Positions 33,624-44,928 of a DNA stretch of 64,000 bases are shown here, piece after piece. The notes below the pieces were generated by a model. It was given only the letters and a program-made list of their open reading frames with translations, ran no database searches and had not been told where the DNA came from. Source of the DNA: Pectinatus frisingensis (GTDB taxonomy: Bacteria > Bacillota > Negativicutes > Selenomonadales > Selenomonadaceae); contig NZ_WIQU01000042.1 of the NCBI RefSeq assembly GCF_015732285.1, positions 63,145 through 127,144 on the forward strand. Direction: 5' to 3'. The number at the start of each line of letters is the position of its first letter. Within the stretch, counting starts at the first letter, position 1. The position numbers and the translations under genes were made by a program.

Positions 33624-35152
33624 TTGGCCACAGTTCAAGAAAGAATCGACCTCATGAATGCTAAAAAAGAACATATCATGCAGGGCGGCGGTCCAAAACG
33701 TATTGAAAAGCAGCATGCTAAAGGCAAAATGACAGCCCGCGAACGTATAAATCTTTTGTTCGATGAAGGGACTTTTGTCGAATTAGATCAGTTTGTAAAA
33801 CATCGCTGCACTAATTTCGGGCAGGAAAAGAAAGATCTGCCGGGTGAAGGTGTTGTTACAGGGTATGGTACTATTGATGGGCGCTTAGTATATGCTTTTG
33901 CTGAAGATTTTACCGTTGAAGGTGGATCACTTGGTGAAATGCATGCAAAGAAGATTTGGAAAGTACAAGATCTTGCTATAAAAATGGGTGCACCATTTAT
34001 TGGTATTAATGACTCGGGTGGTGCACGTATACAAGAAGCCGTGGATGCTTTAAGCGGATATGGTGGAATCTTCCTCAGAAATACAATGGCTTCAGGTGTA
34101 ATCCCACAGATTTCTGTAATCATGGGACCATGTGCTGGTGGTGCTGTATATTCACCAGCTTTGACTGATTTTGTCTTTATGGTAAAAAAGACCAGCCAAA
34201 TGTTTATAACCGGTCCTGCCGTAATAAAGTCGGTAACTGCTGAAGAAGTAACTGCTGAACAGCTCGGCGGGGCTATGACTCATAATACCACATCTGGTGT
34301 AGCTCATTTTGCCGCTGAAAATGAACAGGACTGTATAAACCAGATTCGTTATCTGCTCAGTTTTCTGCCGAGTAATAATATGGATGATGCTCCGACGGTT
34401 GATACGGGAGATGATCCATCCCGCATGGATGAATCTTTAGATACAGTTGTTCCGGATAATCCTAATATGCCATATGATATGAAGGATGTAATCCGCTCAT
34501 TGGTGGATAATGGTGAATTCTATGAATCACAGGCACATTATGCAAAAAATATTATAACCTGTTTTGCTCATTTTGATGGGCGCAGCGTTGGCATAATAGC
34601 CAATCAGCCAAATGTTATGGCAGGAGTCTTGATATTAATGCATCAGATAAATCAGCAAGATTTATTCGTTTTTGTGATGCGTTCAATCTTCCTATTGTAA
34701 ATTTAGTTGACGTACCGGGCTTTTTACCAGGAACTGACCAAGAATACGGCGGAATCATTCGCCATGGTGCAAAAATGCTTTATGCATACAGCGAAGCCAC
34801 AGTTCCAAAGGTAACCGTCATTACACGTAAAGCATATGGTGGATCTTACCTCGCCATGTGTTCGCGTGACTTAGGTGCAGATCAGGTAATGGCATGGCCA
34901 ACAGCTGAAATAGCTGTTATGGGACCGGCTGGTGCTGCTAATATCATTTTCCGCAGGGATCCTGACGTCAAGCAAAAAACAGCTGAATATATTGAAGAAT
35001 TTGCTACACCATATAAGGCAGCTGAACGTGGTTATGTCGATATGGTTATTGAACCATCAGAAACGAGACCGCGCATTATTACTGCGTTAAACATGCTTGC
35101 TAGCAAATGTGAAAGCCGTCCGGCTAAAAAACATGGCAATGTACCATTATAA
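33624..35152 (+). pseudogene. mmdA: Methylmalonyl-CoA decarboxylase alpha subunit (carboxyltransferase), frameshifted
   Basis: Start TTG at 33624 with an AGGAGG site. The frame runs correctly to about 34631 (…QPNVMAGVL) and then shifts. The expected continuation [16 protein letters not shown] is read one base out of phase, and the normal C-terminus resumes to 35152 ([14 protein letters not shown]). One missing G in TTG(G)ATATTAATG explains it, and restoring it gives 509 aa, the normal length. MmdA moves the carboxyl group from (S)-methylmalonyl-CoA to biotin. Because the rest is well conserved and the gene is central to the pathway, a sequencing error or very recent mutation is likely. Confidence 0.9.
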
Positions 35153-35939: not shown

Positions 35940-36128
35940 ATGGAAAATACAAATGAACTTGATTTTACCTGTGGTTTATCTGATGATGAACTTACGGTCA
36001 GATTTCGGGAAGCAGTACGTATTGGTAATGAAATAAAGAAAATAAAAGGTCAACCCATTGCAAAATATGACCATGAGAAGAATGTACCTTATATCGAGTA
36101 CCCTGATGGAAGAAAAGAATATGCTTAA
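35940..36128 (+). CDS. Putative antitoxin upstream of a zeta-like toxin
   Basis: 62 aa from the ATG at 35940 with AAGGGAGG upstream. It is small and acidic-to-mixed (LSDDELTVRFREAVRIGNEI... and a closing YPDGRKEY), with no domain I can name. It overlaps the next gene by 8 nt. Size, order and overlap with a P-loop zeta-type kinase suggest an antitoxin that binds and blocks the toxin, as epsilon does for zeta. This is inference from context. It has its own leader after the strong terminator of the propionate operon. Confidence 0.6.
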   Translation: MENTNELDFTCGLSDDELTVRFREAVRIGNEIKKIKGQPIAKYDHEKNVPYIEYPDGRKEYA

Positions 36129-36693
36129 AAAACCTGAAATAATAGTAGTGGCAGGGCCTAATGGCAGTGGTAAGAGCACTGTTATACAAATGGTCAATAT
36201 AATACAGCCTTATATAAATGCCGATGATATAAAAGCGGCTTTGCAGTGTACTGCACTGCAGGCAGCGCAAAAAGCTGAAAAATTGAGGAATACATTAATA
36301 AACCGTCAGATGAGTTTCACCTTTGAAACGGTATTATCAACGTCAAGAAATATAGAACTTTTAAAACGGGCAAGAAAAGCAGGATTTTTTATACGCTGCA
36401 TATATGTGCTTACTATCGACCCACAAATTAATATCATACGGGTGCGTGTGCGTAAGGCAGCCGGTGGACATGATGTTCCGCAGGATAAAATCATCAGCCG
36501 TTACAAAAAGGCATTAGCACAAATACCGCAGTTACTAGAGGTATGCGATATTTGTCATATTTATGATAATTCTGATGAAATTCCGTTTCGTATTTTCAAA
36601 AAACGAAAAGATGAATATTTTTATTGGGAAGATTCATTTTGGAATAAAAATAAAATAGAAAAATTAATCAATAATAAATCCTGCTGCAACTGA
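36121..36693 (+). CDS. Zeta-toxin-like P-loop kinase
   Basis: 190 aa from the ATG at 36121. Walker A is GPNGSGKST (12-20). Conserved INADDI (about 40-45) and the FETVLSTSRN segment are typical of zeta/UDP-GlcNAc kinase-like toxins, as is the long helical region with YIRC-type strands and RVRKAAGGHDVP. Zeta toxins phosphorylate UDP-N-acetylglucosamine and block cell-wall synthesis. Short P-loop kinases of this sort may have other substrates. Its translation is coupled to the antitoxin-like gene by an 8-nt overlap. Confidence 0.78.
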   Translation: MLKKPEIIVVAGPNGSGKSTVIQMVNIIQPYINADDIKAALQCTALQAAQKAEKLRNTLINRQMSFTFETVLSTSRNIELLKRARKAGFFIRCIYVLTIDPQINIIRVRVRKAAGGHDVPQDKIISRYKKALAQIPQLLEVCDICHIYDNSDEIPFRIFKKRKDEYFYWEDSFWNKNKIEKLINNKSCCN

Positions 36694-36714
36694 TATCAGC
36701 CGCAGCAGGATTTT
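36676..36714. terminator. Terminator overlapping the zeta-like gene end
   Basis: AAATCCTGCTGC (36676-36687) pairs with GCAGCAGGATTT (36702-36713). The toxin stop codon lies in the loop and the convergent phospholipase-D-type gene ends at the other side. Short A/T tails on both strands make it bidirectional. Confidence 0.8.
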
Positions 36715-37331
36715 CAGTTATAACTTTGCGTATTATCCCAGCGCCATTGCCAATTTTCATTATAATAATCGGCTAACTTTTTATTGCCGCGAATTATTAA
36801 AACGTTTTCGGCATTGTTTTTTTCGGCAGCCTTAGTAAAATTAAATGATCCTGTGATAATCGTACTGTCATCTATTATCATAACTTTGCTATGAGCTATA
36901 GCAAAATCATGATCAATTTTGACAGGGATTTTATTATCGATAAAAAATTTGGCAGCAGAATATTTTTCTGTTTCATTACTTTTATCCAAAATTATTTTTA
37001 CAATGACGCCACGCTTTTGAGCATTCAACAGAGCTTTTGCGATAGGTGTAGAAGTAAAAAGATAAGCCTGTACCTTAATAGTGCTATGGGCTTCATTTAT
37101 TGCTTTTATTACGGTATCTGTCGCACCACCATTGGGACTAAAGGCAACTTCGATTGTTCCGGCAGCATTTACGATATTGGGATGGTCTATTTCACCCGGC
37201 AGGACTGCTTGTGCAGAGGCTGTTTTGTTTACAAGGGCATTTTCATGCGAAATTGTCTTATTACTGCAGCCAAGTAAAAATCCGGCGAAAAATATTGAGA
37301 GAACAACAATAGCAGATACTAATTTTTTCAA
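36714..37331 (-). CDS. Phospholipase-D-superfamily lipoprotein, Nuc-like
   Basis: 205 aa. An N-terminal hydrophobic signal ends in the lipobox LLGC with Cys22, so it is probably a lipoprotein facing the periplasm. A single HKD motif H147-x-K149-x4-D154 is followed by GSFNFTKAAEKNNAEN, the pattern of Nuc-type endonucleases, which dimerise to build one active site. The likely activity is periplasmic nucleic-acid hydrolysis, with phosphodiesterase action on lipids as the alternative. It is a single gene downstream of tRNA-Val and bounded by terminators. Confidence 0.87.
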   Translation of the reverse strand: MKKLVSAIVVLSIFFAGFLLGCSNKTISHENALVNKTASAQAVLPGEIDHPNIVNAAGTIEVAFSPNGGATDTVIKAINEAHSTIKVQAYLFTSTPIAKALLNAQKRGVIVKIILDKSNETEKYSAAKFFIDNKIPVKIDHDFAIAHSKVMIIDDSTIITGSFNFTKAAEKNNAENVLIIRGNKKLADYYNENWQWRWDNTQSYN

Positions 37332-37451: not shown

Positions 37452-37526
37452 TGGTAGGGCATGGTGGTTTCGAACCACCGACCTCTTGAATGTGAATCAA
37501 GCGCTCTCCCCCTGAGCTAATACCCC
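37452..37526 (-). tRNA. tRNA-Val (anticodon CAC)
   Basis: 75 nt including encoded CCA. Acceptor GGGGTAT pairs ATGCCCT with two G-U pairs. D-stem is GCTC/GAGC, anticodon stem CTTGA/TCAAG with loop TTCACAT (anticodon CAC, reading GUG), variable AGGTC, and T-stem GGTGG/CCACC with loop TTCGAAA. A -10-like TATAAT lies upstream at 37557-37562 on the minus strand. Confidence 0.93.
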
Positions 37527-37923: not shown

Positions 37924-38000
37924 TGGTGCGATTGGCCAGAGTCGAACTGGCTACCTGCCGCTTAGGAGGCGGCCGCTCTATCCATGTGAGCTACAACCGC
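37924..38000 (-). tRNA. tRNA-Arg (anticodon CCU)
   Basis: 77 nt including encoded CCA. Acceptor GCGGTTG/CAATCGC (one G-U), D-stem GCTC/GAGC with a 9-nt loop, anticodon stem GCCGC/GCGGC with loop CTCCTAA (anticodon CCT, reading AGG), T-stem GCCAG/CTGGC with loop TTCGACT, discriminator A. Confidence 0.95.
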
Positions 38001-38084: not shown

Positions 38085-38843
38085 TTAATTTTGCAGTGTC
38101 TGGTCAGCAGTCATTTCTGTCAAATAAGGCCAGTATTTTTCAGGCATGAATGAACGGCGCAGCCTGGGATTTTCTCTTTCTTCGATGGCAATACTGCGGT
38201 AATATTGGCACCACATTTGACGGAATTTTTGTTCGTCCTTACTGTAGTCAAGATTATGTTTAGGTTCGGTAATCTCAGTTATGAGTAAAGTTTTTTTATT
38301 ATAATAAGCCGCTATATGGCGGTGAATATCATGAATGGCCCATTCCTCTGCGGGTAAACGATTGGTAAAGTGTCCGGCGATGAGTGGGACAATATTGTAA
38401 TCTGGTTTGATGATGGCGTAAAGCATTCCGGCGGCAAGTTCATTAAAGCGGAGTAATCCCAGTATACGCTGGCATTCATTACTGGTTTTCAGCGACCATT
38501 TTTCGACTTGTTGTATCCAGGGATCACGTCGGCAGACTGACAGTGTTCCTATATGACGGAAGGCTGTACAAATATAATAAAATAAAATCATTTCCCGTTC
38601 CGGCTGTTCTGCCATAAAAGCATAGTATAGTGTATGGGCGGCTATTGAACCACATTTTTGGTGAAAGGAATTAATCACCGAACTGGCATGATCTATATTG
38701 CTGGTTATTATTTTTTCGTTACCGAATAAAGAAGAACCGGCGCGTTTATTTTCTATTTTTTCCACATGGCTGGTTCCATCATGATATGCTTGATAAACAA
38801 CGGATAAAAAACCGGGAAAGGAGCCATCGTATTGATAATACAT
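38085..38843 (-). CDS. TIGR03915-type putative DNA metabolism protein
   Basis: 252 aa, starting MYYQYDGSFPGFLSVVYQAY, the typical opening of this family. It is mostly helical, with a conserved C-terminal block (RRSFMPEKYWPYLTEM). The family is named for its constant partnership with a radical SAM protein, and in some bacteria it is fused to a uracil-DNA-glycosylase-like domain. That fusion is absent here. Its biochemical function is unknown. It lies 2 nt downstream of the radical SAM gene, so the two are surely co-translated. It is cytoplasmic, with no signal or membrane segment. Confidence 0.85.
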   Translation of the reverse strand: MYYQYDGSFPGFLSVVYQAYHDGTSHVEKIENKRAGSSLFGNEKIITSNIDHASSVINSFHQKCGSIAAHTLYYAFMAEQPEREMILFYYICTAFRHIGTLSVCRRDPWIQQVEKWSLKTSNECQRILGLLRFNELAAGMLYAIIKPDYNIVPLIAGHFTNRLPAEEWAIHDIHRHIAAYYNKKTLLITEITEPKHNLDYSKDEQKFRQMWCQYYRSIAIEERENPRLRRSFMPEKYWPYLTEMTADQTLQN

Positions 38844-38845
38844 GT

Positions 38846-40093
38846 TTACACCTGACCTTCGAAGAGACTAAACTGTTTAAATATTATCTGGTTTTTTTGT
38901 GAGAGCAGTATTTTTTTTATCAGCAGCGGGTCATCACGACGAAGTCCGTAATATTTCCCTGAGCAGGTAATAAAATGCCGGGCCCGTTTCCAGACGATAC
39001 CGATATGGCGTAATTCATCATAAGAGAGATTGCCAAAACGACGCAATGTGCGTATGCGCATTGCTGAACGAACTCCTATCCCCGGAACACGCAGCAGCAT
39101 CTCATAAGGAGCCCGGTTTATTTCAACCGGGAAAATATGCCAGTTTTGTAAAGCCCAATTTGTTTTTGGATCGACAGATAAATCGAAATTAGGTCTGTCA
39201 GCAGTTAAAATTTCATCTGCAGAGAAATGATAGTAACGCAGCAGCCAATCAGCCTGGTAAAGACGATTTTCCCGCAGCAGCGGCGGAACTTGCAGTGCCG
39301 GCAGGTTTTTACCAGTCATTACCGGTACATAAGCGGAATAATAAACTCGCTTTAATGAAACTTTTTTATATAAAGCTTCACTGAGTTTTAAAATATGGCG
39401 GTCATTTTCACCACTGGCGCCGATTATCATTTGTGTAGTTTGGCCGGCGGGAATAAAGCTGGGAACATATTTTACCAAATGTTTTTCTTCTTGGCGTTCG
39501 GTCAGTTTATTTTTTATAAATTGCATGGGAGTTATGATTGCTGATCTGGTTTTTTGCGGAGCCAGCAACTTTAATGAACTTTCCGAAGGCAATTCCATGT
39601 TTACACTCATGCGGTCAACATATTTACCCAGTTCATAAATTAACATGGAATCAGTTCCGGGAATACCTTTCATGTGTATGTAACCATTAAAATTTTCTTT
39701 TAAACGGAGTGTCTTGGCTATTTTTATTAGTAATTCGGTTGTATAATCAGGAGATTTTATTATACCTGAGCTTAAAAACAGTCCTTCAATATAATTGCGG
39801 CGGTAAAATTGTACGGTCAGTCCGACAACTTCCTCCGGGGAAAGATGGGTGCGCACTATGTCATTGCTATGGCGGTTGACGCAGTATTCACAATCATAGA
39901 TGCAGTAATTGGTCATGAGTATTTTAAGTAAAGAAATGCACCGCCCATCAGCTGCCCAGCTGTGACAAATGCCGCTGGGAGCCGCATTACCAAGGCCATT
40001 GATTCTGTTTTTTCGTTTTGATCCGCTGGAGGAGCAAGAAACATCATATTTGGCAGCATCAGATAAAATTTTTAATTTTTCCATGATTTCCAT
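38846..40093 (-). CDS. TIGR03916-type putative DNA modification/repair radical SAM protein
   Basis: 415 aa from the ATG at 40093, placed 9 nt after GGAG; an ATG 15 nt upstream is not spaced correctly. The radical SAM motif is C64-x3-C68-x2-C71. An N-terminal block with GICHSWAADGRC, and a C-terminal helix-hairpin-helix (LLRVPGIGVRSAMRI) likely to bind DNA, frame the SAM barrel. The family is predicted to repair or modify DNA together with the TIGR03915 protein, but the reaction is not known. It is divergent from a small DsrE gene across about 200 bp. Confidence 0.88.
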   Translation of the reverse strand: MEIMEKLKILSDAAKYDVSCSSSGSKRKNRINGLGNAAPSGICHSWAADGRCISLLKILMTNYCIYDCEYCVNRHSNDIVRTHLSPEEVVGLTVQFYRRNYIEGLFLSSGIIKSPDYTTELLIKIAKTLRLKENFNGYIHMKGIPGTDSMLIYELGKYVDRMSVNMELPSESSLKLLAPQKTRSAIITPMQFIKNKLTERQEEKHLVKYVPSFIPAGQTTQMIIGASGENDRHILKLSEALYKKVSLKRVYYSAYVPVMTGKNLPALQVPPLLRENRLYQADWLLRYYHFSADEILTADRPNFDLSVDPKTNWALQNWHIFPVEINRAPYEMLLRVPGIGVRSAMRIRTLRRFGNLSYDELRHIGIVWKRARHFITCSGKYYGLRRDDPLLIKKILLSQKNQIIFKQFSLFEGQV

Positions 40094-40291
40094 GGTAGTT
40101 ATCTCCATAATACAAAATTAAATTTATAAAATAATTGAATTGCTTAGAGTATAACATTATAATTAAGTAAAGTAAATAATAAAATTAAGTAAACTGAATG
40201 AGAAGGAGATGCTAAAATATTATTGAATATAGAAATTAAGGTGGTATCTGTTGTATTGTAGAGACATATATAAAGATTAAGGGAGAATAAG

Positions 40292-41935: not shown

Positions 41936-42177
41936 CAGTTTGCATGTATTTTTTGTTATACGGATAAAATCAAGCGATAAAAACGGGTTTAGATTCGGCC
42001 CCTTGTAAACCTGCCGTATATCTGCGATAATATATATTATAAAATAATATGTGTCGGCATTTATCTATTGTTGCGATATAAAATGTAAAAAAATTTAGAA
42101 GTTTTAATCAACATATTTGCAAAAATAGATTGGAACCAATAGGACAAGCTGATTATATTTACTGGGAGTTTTATTTT
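41936..42177. other. Rest of the 307-bp divergent gap between AEC carrier and LevR-type gene
   Basis: AT-rich with no small ORF, tRNA or repeat. It presumably contains the levR-type promoter, but no clear -35/-10 pair or sigma-54 site stands out. Confidence 0.35.
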
Positions 42178-44928
42178 ATGAAACGTATTGACCGTATATA
42201 TGCATATATAAAAGGAATATATAACGACAGCAGAGTAAGAGAAAAGGGTGTCACGGCTGCGGCAATAGCTCAGCAGCTGGATATACTGCGCAGTAATGTC
42301 AGCCGTGAGCTCAATGAGCTTTATCGTCAAAAGAAGATATGTAAATCAACCGGGCGACCTGTATTATATTTTTATGATGATGGCAAAGTTAAGAATACCG
42401 TCAGACAGAAAAAGACTGATAATTTGTCGGATAATATTCATGATACGCACTCTAATACAGCTTTTTGCAAGTTCGTTGGATCTAGTTTAAAACCGCAAAT
42501 TGATCAGGCGAAAGCAGCAATAATTTACCCGCCTGATGGTCTTCATACGCTTATTTTGGGTCAAACCGGTGTCGGAAAGACGCTGTTTGCCCATATGATG
42601 TTTGATTATGGTTGTGAAGTAGGACGATTTAAAAAAGATGCGCCGTTTATAACATTCAACTGCGCTGATTATTATAATAACCCACAGCTTTTGATATCAC
42701 ATATATTTGGACATATGCGCGGTGCTTTCACCGGAGCTGACACAAATTCAATCGGATTGATCGAATCAGCTGATGAGGGAGTCTTATTCCTTGATGAAGT
42801 TCATCGCCTGCCGCCGGAAGGCCAGGAAATGATTTTTTACTTTATGGATACCGGAACTTTTAATCGCTTGGGAGAAACCAAACGGGAACGAAAAGCACGT
42901 GTTTTGATTATCTGCGCTACTACCGAAGATCCTGAATCTGTTTTGACAAAAACATTTCAGCGACGTATTCCCAATATTATTCAAATTCCACCATTAACAG
43001 AGCGCCCAATCGAGGAAAAGCTGGAGATAACAAAATTATTATTTTTAAAGGAAGCCCATTTTATCAAACGTCCGATAAAAGTCAGCGGTGATGCCATAAA
43101 GGCACTTATTGGCAGCATCGGGCCGGGAAATGTAGGTCAATTAGAGTCTAATATACGATTGCTGTGTGCCCAGGGATTGCTGAATATAAAAAATCGTAAA
43201 TATATAGAAATAGACTATCATATATTGCCCCAGCAGATAAAATCAGGAATCTTGGCAATGAGCACTAAACGGCAGGACATGGCGGCCATTTCTGCTACGA
43301 TTGGCAATGAATTTTATGTTACGCCAAATAGTAAGGGGAAACTGCCTAAAGAAGTTGAAGATGAAAAATTTAATCTTTACCAAATGGTTGAAAATAAAGT
43401 AAAAATTTTGCGAAGTGAAGGCATTGCTGATGATGTTATCCAGCAAGTGATGATTGCCGATGTGAATGCATATTTAAAAGATTTTTATATAAAACAAAAG
43501 CAAAATGTTAAATTATCGGTTCATGATAGATTGTTAAAAATTATTGATGCCGATATGGTAGATTTTACTCAACAAGTGGCCGATGTTGTGGCCCGGCGGA
43601 TTAATCTAGTGTCCAAGGAGAGATTTTTGTATGCTTTTGGATTGCATTTAAGCTCGCTATTTGCCAGAATAAAAGAAAAAAAACAGCTGCGCAGTTCTTC
43701 TTTATCCGGTATGGTGGATACAACTACCATTGAGTTTGAACTGGCGCAGGAAATAAAAAAAATTATTGAGCAGCATTATGACCTGGTTATTGCAGATTCT
43801 GAAACCGAATATTTTGCCATGCTGCTACAGTCATTAAAGGAAGAAGATATCACTGATAAAATAGTGATAGCGGTCGCTATGCATGGTAATTATACGGCAA
43901 GTTCGGTTTGTGATGTTGCCCGCAAACTTTTTAGCGCGACAAAAGTACAGCTGATACCATTTGATATGCCACTGGAATGTAAACCTAATGAAATGCTGGG
44001 AAAAATAACCGATAAATTAAGGACGATAAATTGCAGCCAGGGCGTTCTGCTAATGGCTGATATGGGATCATTATGTAATTTTGGGGCGCTTATTGAGGAA
44101 CAGCTTAATATTCCGGTCATGACAATAAATATGGTTACGACACCATTGGTTTTAGAGGCAATGCGCAAGGTGGATATGGCGGGAATAACTCTGCCGGCAG
44201 TATATGATTCATTGAAAAGTTTTGGCGGATATGATGACAGTACGATCTTACCTGATACTAAAAAAGCAGAAAAAAGTGATGCAATTATCACTATCTGTAG
44301 TTCCGGTGAAGGTACAGCTGAAAAACTGAAACAGATAATTTTTGATATTTTGATCAATGCGGGGATACTTAATATAAAAATTATTCCGTTGAGCCTTTAT
44401 GATATGAAGGAAAATATAAAAAAATTATCGGAAAAATATAACATCGTAGCTTCAGTAGGTGTTGTCAATCCCCAGATAGATGCTCCGTTTATACCACTGG
44501 AAACCTTGTTGGGCGGCAGAGAAAATGCTTTGTTGTGTCATCTGCCAATGGTAGGAAATCATGTTGCAGCGGGTAAAAAGGATAATAATGTTGTACTGCG
44601 ACATTTATGCAGGGATGCGCTGCATGACATGCTGTTGTATCTTAATCCTGATAAAGTAATTAATTTATTGTTAGAGTTTACGGAAAGATTAGAAAAACTT
44701 TTTGACAGTGATTTTTCCAATGCGCAGAAATTAAAAATAATAGTCCATACCGGCTGTGCCTTGGAACGTCAGGTAATACATAATACCATAAAATATAATA
44801 GCAAATTAGCCGGAAAAATTGATGCCGACAAATTGTCTAAAGTCGCCGAAGCTGCCAGTGTGTTTGAAAAAATTTTGCAGTTAAAACTGAATAAAGATGA
44901 ATTGTGCTATATTGCCGCAATGGTTTGA
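42178..44928 (+). CDS. LevR-type sigma-54-dependent PTS regulator
   Basis: 916 aa from the ATG at 42178 (GGGAG upstream). Order: N-terminal winged helix (1-70), AAA+ sigma-54-interaction domain with Walker A GQTGVGKT (128-135), GAFTGAD (182-188) and Walker B VLFLDE (202-207), a PRD-type domain, an EIIA-Man-like domain (region of AVAMHGNYTASSV), an EIIB-like stretch and a second PRD at the C-terminus. LevR-type proteins activate mannose-family PTS operons after phosphorylation by PTS proteins. No PTS genes are in the window. It is convergent with the glycosyltransferase gene, and its target may be elsewhere. Confidence 0.9.
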   Translation: MKRIDRIYAYIKGIYNDSRVREKGVTAAAIAQQLDILRSNVSRELNELYRQKKICKSTGRPVLYFYDDGKVKNTVRQKKTDNLSDNIHDTHSNTAFCKFVGSSLKPQIDQAKAAIIYPPDGLHTLILGQTGVGKTLFAHMMFDYGCEVGRFKKDAPFITFNCADYYNNPQLLISHIFGHMRGAFTGADTNSIGLIESADEGVLFLDEVHRLPPEGQEMIFYFMDTGTFNRLGETKRERKARVLIICATTEDPESVLTKTFQRRIPNIIQIPPLTERPIEEKLEITKLLFLKEAHFIKRPIKVSGDAIKALIGSIGPGNVGQLESNIRLLCAQGLLNIKNRKYIEIDYHILPQQIKSGILAMSTKRQDMAAISATIGNEFYVTPNSKGKLPKEVEDEKFNLYQMVENKVKILRSEGIADDVIQQVMIADVNAYLKDFYIKQKQNVKLSVHDRLLKIIDADMVDFTQQVADVVARRINLVSKERFLYAFGLHLSSLFARIKEKKQLRSSSLSGMVDTTTIEFELAQEIKKIIEQHYDLVIADSETEYFAMLLQSLKEEDITDKIVIAVAMHGNYTASSVCDVARKLFSATKVQLIPFDMPLECKPNEMLGKITDKLRTINCSQGVLLMADMGSLCNFGALIEEQLNIPVMTINMVTTPLVLEAMRKVDMAGITLPAVYDSLKSFGGYDDSTILPDTKKAEKSDAIITICSSGEGTAEKLKQIIFDILINAGILNIKIIPLSLYDMKENIKKLSEKYNIVASVGVVNPQIDAPFIPLETLLGGRENALLCHLPMVGNHVAAGKKDNNVVLRHLCRDALHDMLLYLNPDKVINLLLEFTERLEKLFDSDFSNAQKLKIIVHTGCALERQVIHNTIKYNSKLAGKIDADKLSKVAEAASVFEKILQLKLNKDELCYIAAMV

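Follow-up and report, generated by a model that had tools for sequence, protein, structure and literature searches.

The gene pair described here lies on the minus strand of a 64,000-nucleotide stretch of Pectinatus frisingensis DNA, which is referred to below as the window. It consists of two complete open reading frames, a radical SAM gene (P0002, 38846..40093, 415 aa) and a partner gene (P0001, 38085..38843, 252 aa), which follows it after 2 nt. An alternative ATG 15 nt upstream would extend the radical SAM protein to 420 aa. The radical SAM protein belongs to the NCBIfam family TIGR03916 (rSAM_link_UDG; profile positions 1-405 of 415, E 8.4e-193, 641 bits where the cut-off is 343.5) and also passes the Pfam Radical_SAM cut-off (31 bits against 29.5). 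The partner belongs to TIGR03915 (SAM_7_link_chp; 1-243 of 243 profile positions, E 7e-67, 226 bits where the cut-off is 112), and its Pfam domain is DUF4130. No UDG domain was found in either protein by a Pfam search at E up to 1, and the partner is thus not of the UdgX fusion form known as TIGR03914. Both the adjacency of the genes and the lack of a fused glycosylase domain, as described in an earlier note on this DNA, are therefore borne out.

The same note had seen in the pair the window's best candidate for an undescribed enzyme system, which holds only in part. Our literature searches turned up no known reaction or lesion for the TIGR03916/DUF4130 pair, but the families carry names in NCBIfam and Pfam, and LexA control of the operon has already been predicted. 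Because both proteins belong to named families, the pair is not new as a kind; the window carries a plain example of a repair pair that is widespread and uncharacterised. Families and gene order are shared with other TIGR03916 and TIGR03915 pairs, from which we saw no structural difference; the window copy differs in that its genus has no LexA over the cut-off and its upstream region has no LexA box. Searches of PDB sequences with the pair returned no close relative (best E 0.65; in another search, a 40-residue match to HydG, E 0.0025), and the radical SAM protein has no close sequence relation to solved radical SAM structures.

Next to the pair lie a tRNA-Val gene (37452-37526) and a tRNA-Arg gene (37924-38000), beside which a zeta-toxin-like and a PLD-like open reading frame occupy positions 36058-37331; this region is a possible integration hot spot. 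Elsewhere in the window, a carboxyl transferase (PF01039) is split over two plus-strand frames (33624-34700 and 34775-35152, covering profile positions 1-310 and 359-492), so that either the gene is frameshifted or the sequence contains an error, and a large sigma-54-type regulator with PRD and PTS IIA domains is encoded at 42130-44928 (+).

Both families are widespread. At least 591 relatives were found, and in a phylum sample of 398 genomes the radical SAM cut-off was exceeded in 91, of which 90 also carried DUF4130. The exception (G099) is an incomplete genome (75%) in which the gene sits at the edge of a contig. Conversely, DUF4130 occurred without its partner in 4 of the 398 genomes, three of which hold radical SAM fragments below the cut-off. 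Among 60 related genomes, the radical SAM protein passed the cut-off in 27 and DUF4130 was found in 28 (22 over the cut-off), namely the same 27 genomes and one more (G049). Both families also match in the control genome of Caulobacter vibrioides. At the level of loci, the radical SAM gene is followed by DUF4130 on its own strand and within 4.5 kb in 96 of 99 cases, as judged with a profile built from 62 of those loci's own partners and counting one locus whose open reading frame overlaps (L059); the remaining three are L050, L066 and L068. The partnership is far beyond chance, and the "constant partner" of the earlier note has proved an apt description. Pairwise identities of the two proteins are correlated across 105 loci, fusions and missing or short partners being excluded (r = 0.84); shared descent alone could be a sufficient source of this correlation. 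The 80 named loci, being the best 80 of at least 591 matches, lean to window-like forms, and from them two were dropped by radical SAM length and nine by absence or length of the partner. As separate observations, four genomes of one family (G108, G146, G356 and G377) keep both genes on different contigs or far apart on one contig, and in genus g141 a DUF4130 copy stands apart from the radical SAM gene (G160:C40, G194:C58 and G319:C57), with no radical SAM match found for G319 in the 398-genome search.

By its CX3CX2C motif and predicted barrel fold, the larger protein is a member of the radical SAM superfamily, and cleavage of SAM is predicted. The three cluster cysteines (C64, C68 and C71; 39881..39904, minus strand) are present in all 113 aligned homologues, an alignment from which L132, the second copy of genome G027, was left out. 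Upstream of them lies a conserved N-terminal set of cysteines and histidine (C20, C43, H44 and C52; codons within 39938..40036, minus strand). C43, H44 and C52 are invariant in the 113 sequences; C20 is found in 108, the other five having Ala at this position, and all five printed N-termini of the short forms have a Cys one residue earlier. We regard this set as a possible second metal or Fe-S site. Outside this set and the cluster motif no cysteine is invariant in the alignment, C377 being present in 90 of 113. The structural model has a pLDDT of 88.8, with lower confidence around the Cys/His set (block means 56-82). Among its closest barrels are lipoyl synthase (Z 17.4, 3.5 A, 225 aligned residues), HydE (Z 17.2, 3.1 A, 212 aligned) and biotin synthase (Z 15.9, 3.5 A, 212 aligned), none of which is known to have a helix-hairpin-helix or a clamp peptide. 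Lipoyl synthase is a sulfur-inserting enzyme. Homology to it was considered and set aside, hhalign giving a non-significant probability of 3.5; in this alignment, kept as a lead only, C43 and C52 fall opposite the first and third of LipA's auxiliary cysteines.

Two further parts of the protein point to DNA. A helix-hairpin-helix is placed at residues ~331-352 (LLRVPGIGVRSAMRI; 39038..39103, minus strand). Its HHH_3 match is sub-threshold in the window protein itself (Pfam, E 0.015), but HHH_3 and Radical_SAM each match all 79 aligned homologues at E up to 0.1 (best HHH_3 match 1e-7); we therefore take the element to be real, as the earlier note had stated. Beyond it follows a tail, predicted to be disordered (pLDDT < 50 at residues 403-410), whose length varies among homologues while one short peptide is kept. 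In the window protein this peptide is QFSLF (residues 407-411; 38861..38875, minus strand), and three genus-mates read QMSLF, QISLF and QFSLF. Bacterial beta-clamp-binding peptides have a consensus of the Q-L/M-x-L-F type.

The peptide was found in the last 60 aa of 82 of 99 radical SAM homologues, against 4 of 666 other mechanically called open reading frames of at least 200 aa neighbouring them at the same loci. When tails were cut after the helix-hairpin-helix, which left 85 of 99 (in the other 14 the core pattern was not found), 69 carried the peptide, whereas 500 shuffles gave 1.1 on average and 7 at most; the folded cores carried none. Of the 69 matches, 32 read QLSLF, more than any other form; nine of the 85 tails lack even a loose form. 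Position by position, Q407 is present in 111 of 113 aligned homologues, position 410 holds L, I, M or F in 112, and position 411 holds F or W in 106. The five short forms, which are diverged (42-47% identity with the window protein), carry QLSLW or QSSLW. The hexamer form of the clamp peptide, taken alone, was not above chance (6 of 85 tails; shuffle mean 1.4, maximum 7). Pol IV-type proteins served as a control, which was mixed, suggestive rather than clean: 5 of 16 tails from relatives matched the pattern, one of them (QLPVL) probably by chance, and the host genome's own Pol IV tail did not match, though by eye, some 35 residues before the end, it reads EMSLF, and that of three genus-mates EQSLF. 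Taken together, the radical SAM tail fits the class of beta-clamp-binding peptides, and binding to DnaN is predicted. Judged by titles and the openings of abstracts, literature searches yielded no paper that joins a radical SAM enzyme with a clamp-binding motif or the sliding clamp. At several Bacillota loci (for example L004, L048, L070 and L078) the C-terminus also carries, beyond the clamp-like peptide, a second recurring short motif, in which CLT precedes a few more residues.

The third line of evidence concerns regulation. In what follows, COG4277 is taken by us to be the radical SAM family TIGR03916. LexA control of the operon has been predicted in C. acetobutylicum (CAC3343-CAC3344; PMC3828012) and, under the name COG1573-COG4277, in Bacteroidetes; the latter source also states that the operon is SOS-regulated in Verrucomicrobia and Alphaproteobacteria (PMC8565304). 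An Acinetobacter homologue is reported to be upregulated on drying (PMC13130816). Our counts agree with such control. Within 200 nt upstream, GAAC-N4-GTTC occurs at 29 of 99 loci (shuffle mean 0.2; none in two coding controls) and the Bacteroidetes box CTAA-N5-TTAG at 9 of 99, where shuffles average 0.45 and the two coding controls gave 1 and 0. GTTC-N7-GTTC was found at 3 of 99 loci, one of them alphaproteobacterial (L034), against a shuffle mean of 0.37 and maximum of 3, and GGA-N5-TCC gave no signal, with hits at 4 of 99 loci, 2.1 on average in shuffles and 11 and 9 in the coding controls. The clearest contrast comes from the 27 pair-positive relatives: a LexA-type box, defined as at least 8 of 10 positions of CGAAC-N4-GTTCG, lies within 150 nt upstream in 20 of the 22 that have LexA and in 0 of the 5 that lack it. 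Raising the threshold to 9 of 10 positions leaves 3 of 22, because many boxes read AGAACN4GTTCT.

The window copy probably stands outside this regulation. LexA passes the Pfam cut-off in 41 of the 60 genomes searched and in none of the five genomes of the window's genus (G000-G004), and the best match upstream of the window pair reaches 5 of 10 positions, which is no LexA box. In this genus, without LexA, the operon probably runs from an ordinary promoter. A candidate, TTTACT-17 nt-TATACT with TG before TATACT (40148..40176, minus strand), has counterparts at the same place in three aligned genus-mates, as read by eye; the promoter scan by itself is no evidence, because its 15 sites are no more than shuffles give (10.7, sd 3.4). 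Seen as a whole, the helix-hairpin-helix, the clamp-like peptide and the LexA boxes of relatives give good support to the DNA role that the earlier note had proposed.

The same regulation would also suit an accessory of mutagenic translesion synthesis, which would edit or mark bases in the template and so let error-prone polymerases past them. DUF4130 has indeed been called a predicted mutagenesis-related enzyme (PMC3765255), SOS control of the operon fits such a role, and a similar class of peptide is seen by eye in Pol IV. Yet no polymerase is annotated beside the pair in five plasmid loci, nor was one found in the seven window open reading frames examined, and we consider this explanation very unlikely.

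SOS-linked radical SAM chemistry on DNA brings to mind the spore photoproduct lyase (SplB), which shares with the pair the radical SAM class, DNA repair and, in the literature, an SOS context. If the enzyme of the pair were of this kind, it would directly reverse a UV thymine dimer; an association of DUF4130 with SplB-like photolyases has been reported (PMC3765255). The two are, however, separate families. The SPL profile PF20903 has no match in the radical SAM protein at E up to 1 and none in the host genome at E 0.001, and true SPL is a gene of its own that stands alongside the pair in 11 of 27 pair-positive relatives. The lack of any invariant cysteine outside the N-terminal set and the cluster motif, C377 included, also speaks against an SPL-like enzyme. 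SPL is not among the matches listed for the radical SAM model, which is no evidence of its absence. On balance this identification appears unlikely.

Among the best 80 of at least 591 matches, the nearest radical SAM protein is that of Dialister succinatiphilus (67% identity); genus-mates stand at 76-79%, and five genomes of the window's own family at only 53-55%. The two tRNA genes beside the window pair are absent from the stretches examined in three genus-mates. These data suggest that the pair may have moved between genomes. Plasmid records match in 158 cases; of 20 records among the matches listed, 5 exceed 2 Mb. A phage or defence origin was considered and rejected: a single-protein query of IMG/VR returned no relative, PADLOC gave no defence-system match, and PHROG gave one weak match to a generic radical SAM family. 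Ten records of a phage collection match: eight are faecal contigs of 4-44 kb labelled 'Bacteriophage sp.', and the other two, about 240 kb long, bear the name Acinetobacter phage.

Such records, together with a Parabacteroides plasmid locus (L032) at which queF, queC and a class I SAM-dependent methyltransferase lie a few kb from the pair, could be read as signs that the enzyme serves restriction or protection and not repair, hypermodifying bases of normal DNA or inserting sulfur into it. The NCBIfam name of the family includes 'DNA modification/repair', lipoyl synthase is among the top-scoring folds, and the N-terminal cysteine set precedes the cluster motif as it does in lipoyl synthase, in an alignment that is not significant. 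LexA boxes and the clamp peptide, on the other hand, fit a damage response better than modification; the missing PADLOC match, the absence of restriction or methylase domains from the seven window open reading frames examined and the lack of a viral contig relative (in a single-protein query that reaches close relatives only) point the same way. Modification of undamaged DNA is thus a doubtful explanation.

What the partner might contribute is suggested by its predicted structure. The DUF4130 model, built from 72 homologues, is confident (pLDDT 92.5). Foldseek returned no match at E 0.001 or better, but its top four hits are DHH-type proteins by title or presumed identity (best PAP phosphatase, E 0.011, probability 0.99), and RecJ and Cdc45 appear lower down among unrelated rows. 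With VIA-align, all 50 matches listed are DHH or DHHA1 proteins, about one third of them (replisome chains, AlaRS fragments and unnamed replication proteins) by the presumed identity of the chain. They include PAP phosphatase (Z 8.9, 5.0 A, 188 aligned residues), RecJ (Z 7.7, 4.5 A, 185 aligned), Cdc45 in the human replisome (Z 7.7, 4.3 A, 188 aligned), NrnA, family II pyrophosphatase and the C-terminal domain of AlaRS; Z values of 7-9 are middling by the tool's own scale. Alignments start at residue 1, and the second domain was matched alone at residues 118-201. We favour a DHH-like fold because one superfamily fills the VIA-align list and because the second domain matches alone. The model and the alignments would divide the protein into a truncated DHH-like N-terminal part (residues ~1-80, a boundary set by judgement; 38604..38843, minus strand) and a DHHA1-like part (residues 119-201; 38241..38489, minus strand) with conserved R132, F133, H158, R162 and D172. 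Other conserved residues are D6 (59 of 72, Glu in 8), G11, E123, F159, R223, N225 and E243.

The catalytic signatures of the superfamily are lacking. No conserved columns corresponding to the DHH and GGGH motifs exist in the DUF4130 alignment, and both motifs were found in 20 of 20 NrnA- and RecJ-sized proteins from relatives and the host genome. A DHH domain at the level of sequence was rejected: hhalign of DUF4130 against NrnA and RecJ gave non-significant probabilities of 0.1 and 0.8, where sets of 20 shuffles rose to 1.5 and 0.5, no DHH appears among the Pfam matches listed for the 72 members (25 of 38 families), and the best hit of a PDB profile search had E 0.4. As the sequence searches are not significant, the structural claim is drawn from the model. 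We therefore say that DUF4130 is predicted to fold like DHH-DHHA1 proteins such as RecJ and Cdc45, in reduced form and without their catalytic motifs; compared with RecJ and Cdc45, its N-terminal part is much shorter and no significant sequence similarity remains.

A possible indication of the substrate comes from DUF4130-UdgX fusions (TIGR03914) at two Pseudomonadota plasmid loci (L034 and L035). As in the window, the radical SAM gene is immediately upstream and a DUF4130 domain is present; unlike them, the window partner has no UDG or UdgX domain, and the host genome, of 2.9 Mb, holds two UDG-family matches elsewhere. UdgX is a uracil-DNA binder. The fused partners read KRRMH and KRRLH in their printed sequences where UdgX has KRRIH, and on this ground the covalent-binding His may be kept.

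These observations support a radical SAM enzyme that has predicted DNA-binding and clamp-binding-like parts, is almost always accompanied by its partner and is under LexA control in genomes with LexA. The clamp-like peptide, the partner co-occurrence, the LexA boxes in relatives and the predicted DUF4130 fold are added by the present analysis; LexA control had already been predicted in other groups. On this basis we think it reasonably probable that the pair comprises a radical enzyme, recruited by the clamp and usually under SOS control, which acts on damaged DNA, and a DNA-holding subunit that is not a nuclease, its reaction and substrate being inferred. The clamp would bring the pair to gaps or lesions behind replication forks, after replication or translesion synthesis. 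There DUF4130 might hold single-stranded or gapped DNA without cutting it, by analogy with Cdc45, while the radical SAM enzyme would generate a 5'-deoxyadenosyl radical and repair the damaged nucleotide, presumably by direct reversal rather than excision. The target would most likely be a pyrimidine or uracil-type lesion, which we propose because the partners are fused to UdgX in the two plasmid loci. A bolder form of this proposal, which we regard as improbable, is a clamp-riding repair machine in which C20, C43, H44 and C52 would hold a second Fe-S site, lipoyl-synthase-like chemistry would take place on the damaged base, and a dead RecJ/Cdc45-like subunit would thread the single-stranded substrate.

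Were the bolder form true, a clamp-riding radical SAM enzyme with a dead RecJ/Cdc45-like subunit would give bacterial repair a counterpart of Cdc45. To repair DNA with a radical enzyme that is tethered to the replication clamp would be unusual. The tail peptide, the LexA boxes of relatives and the modelled partner fold offer concrete ways of testing what these families do.
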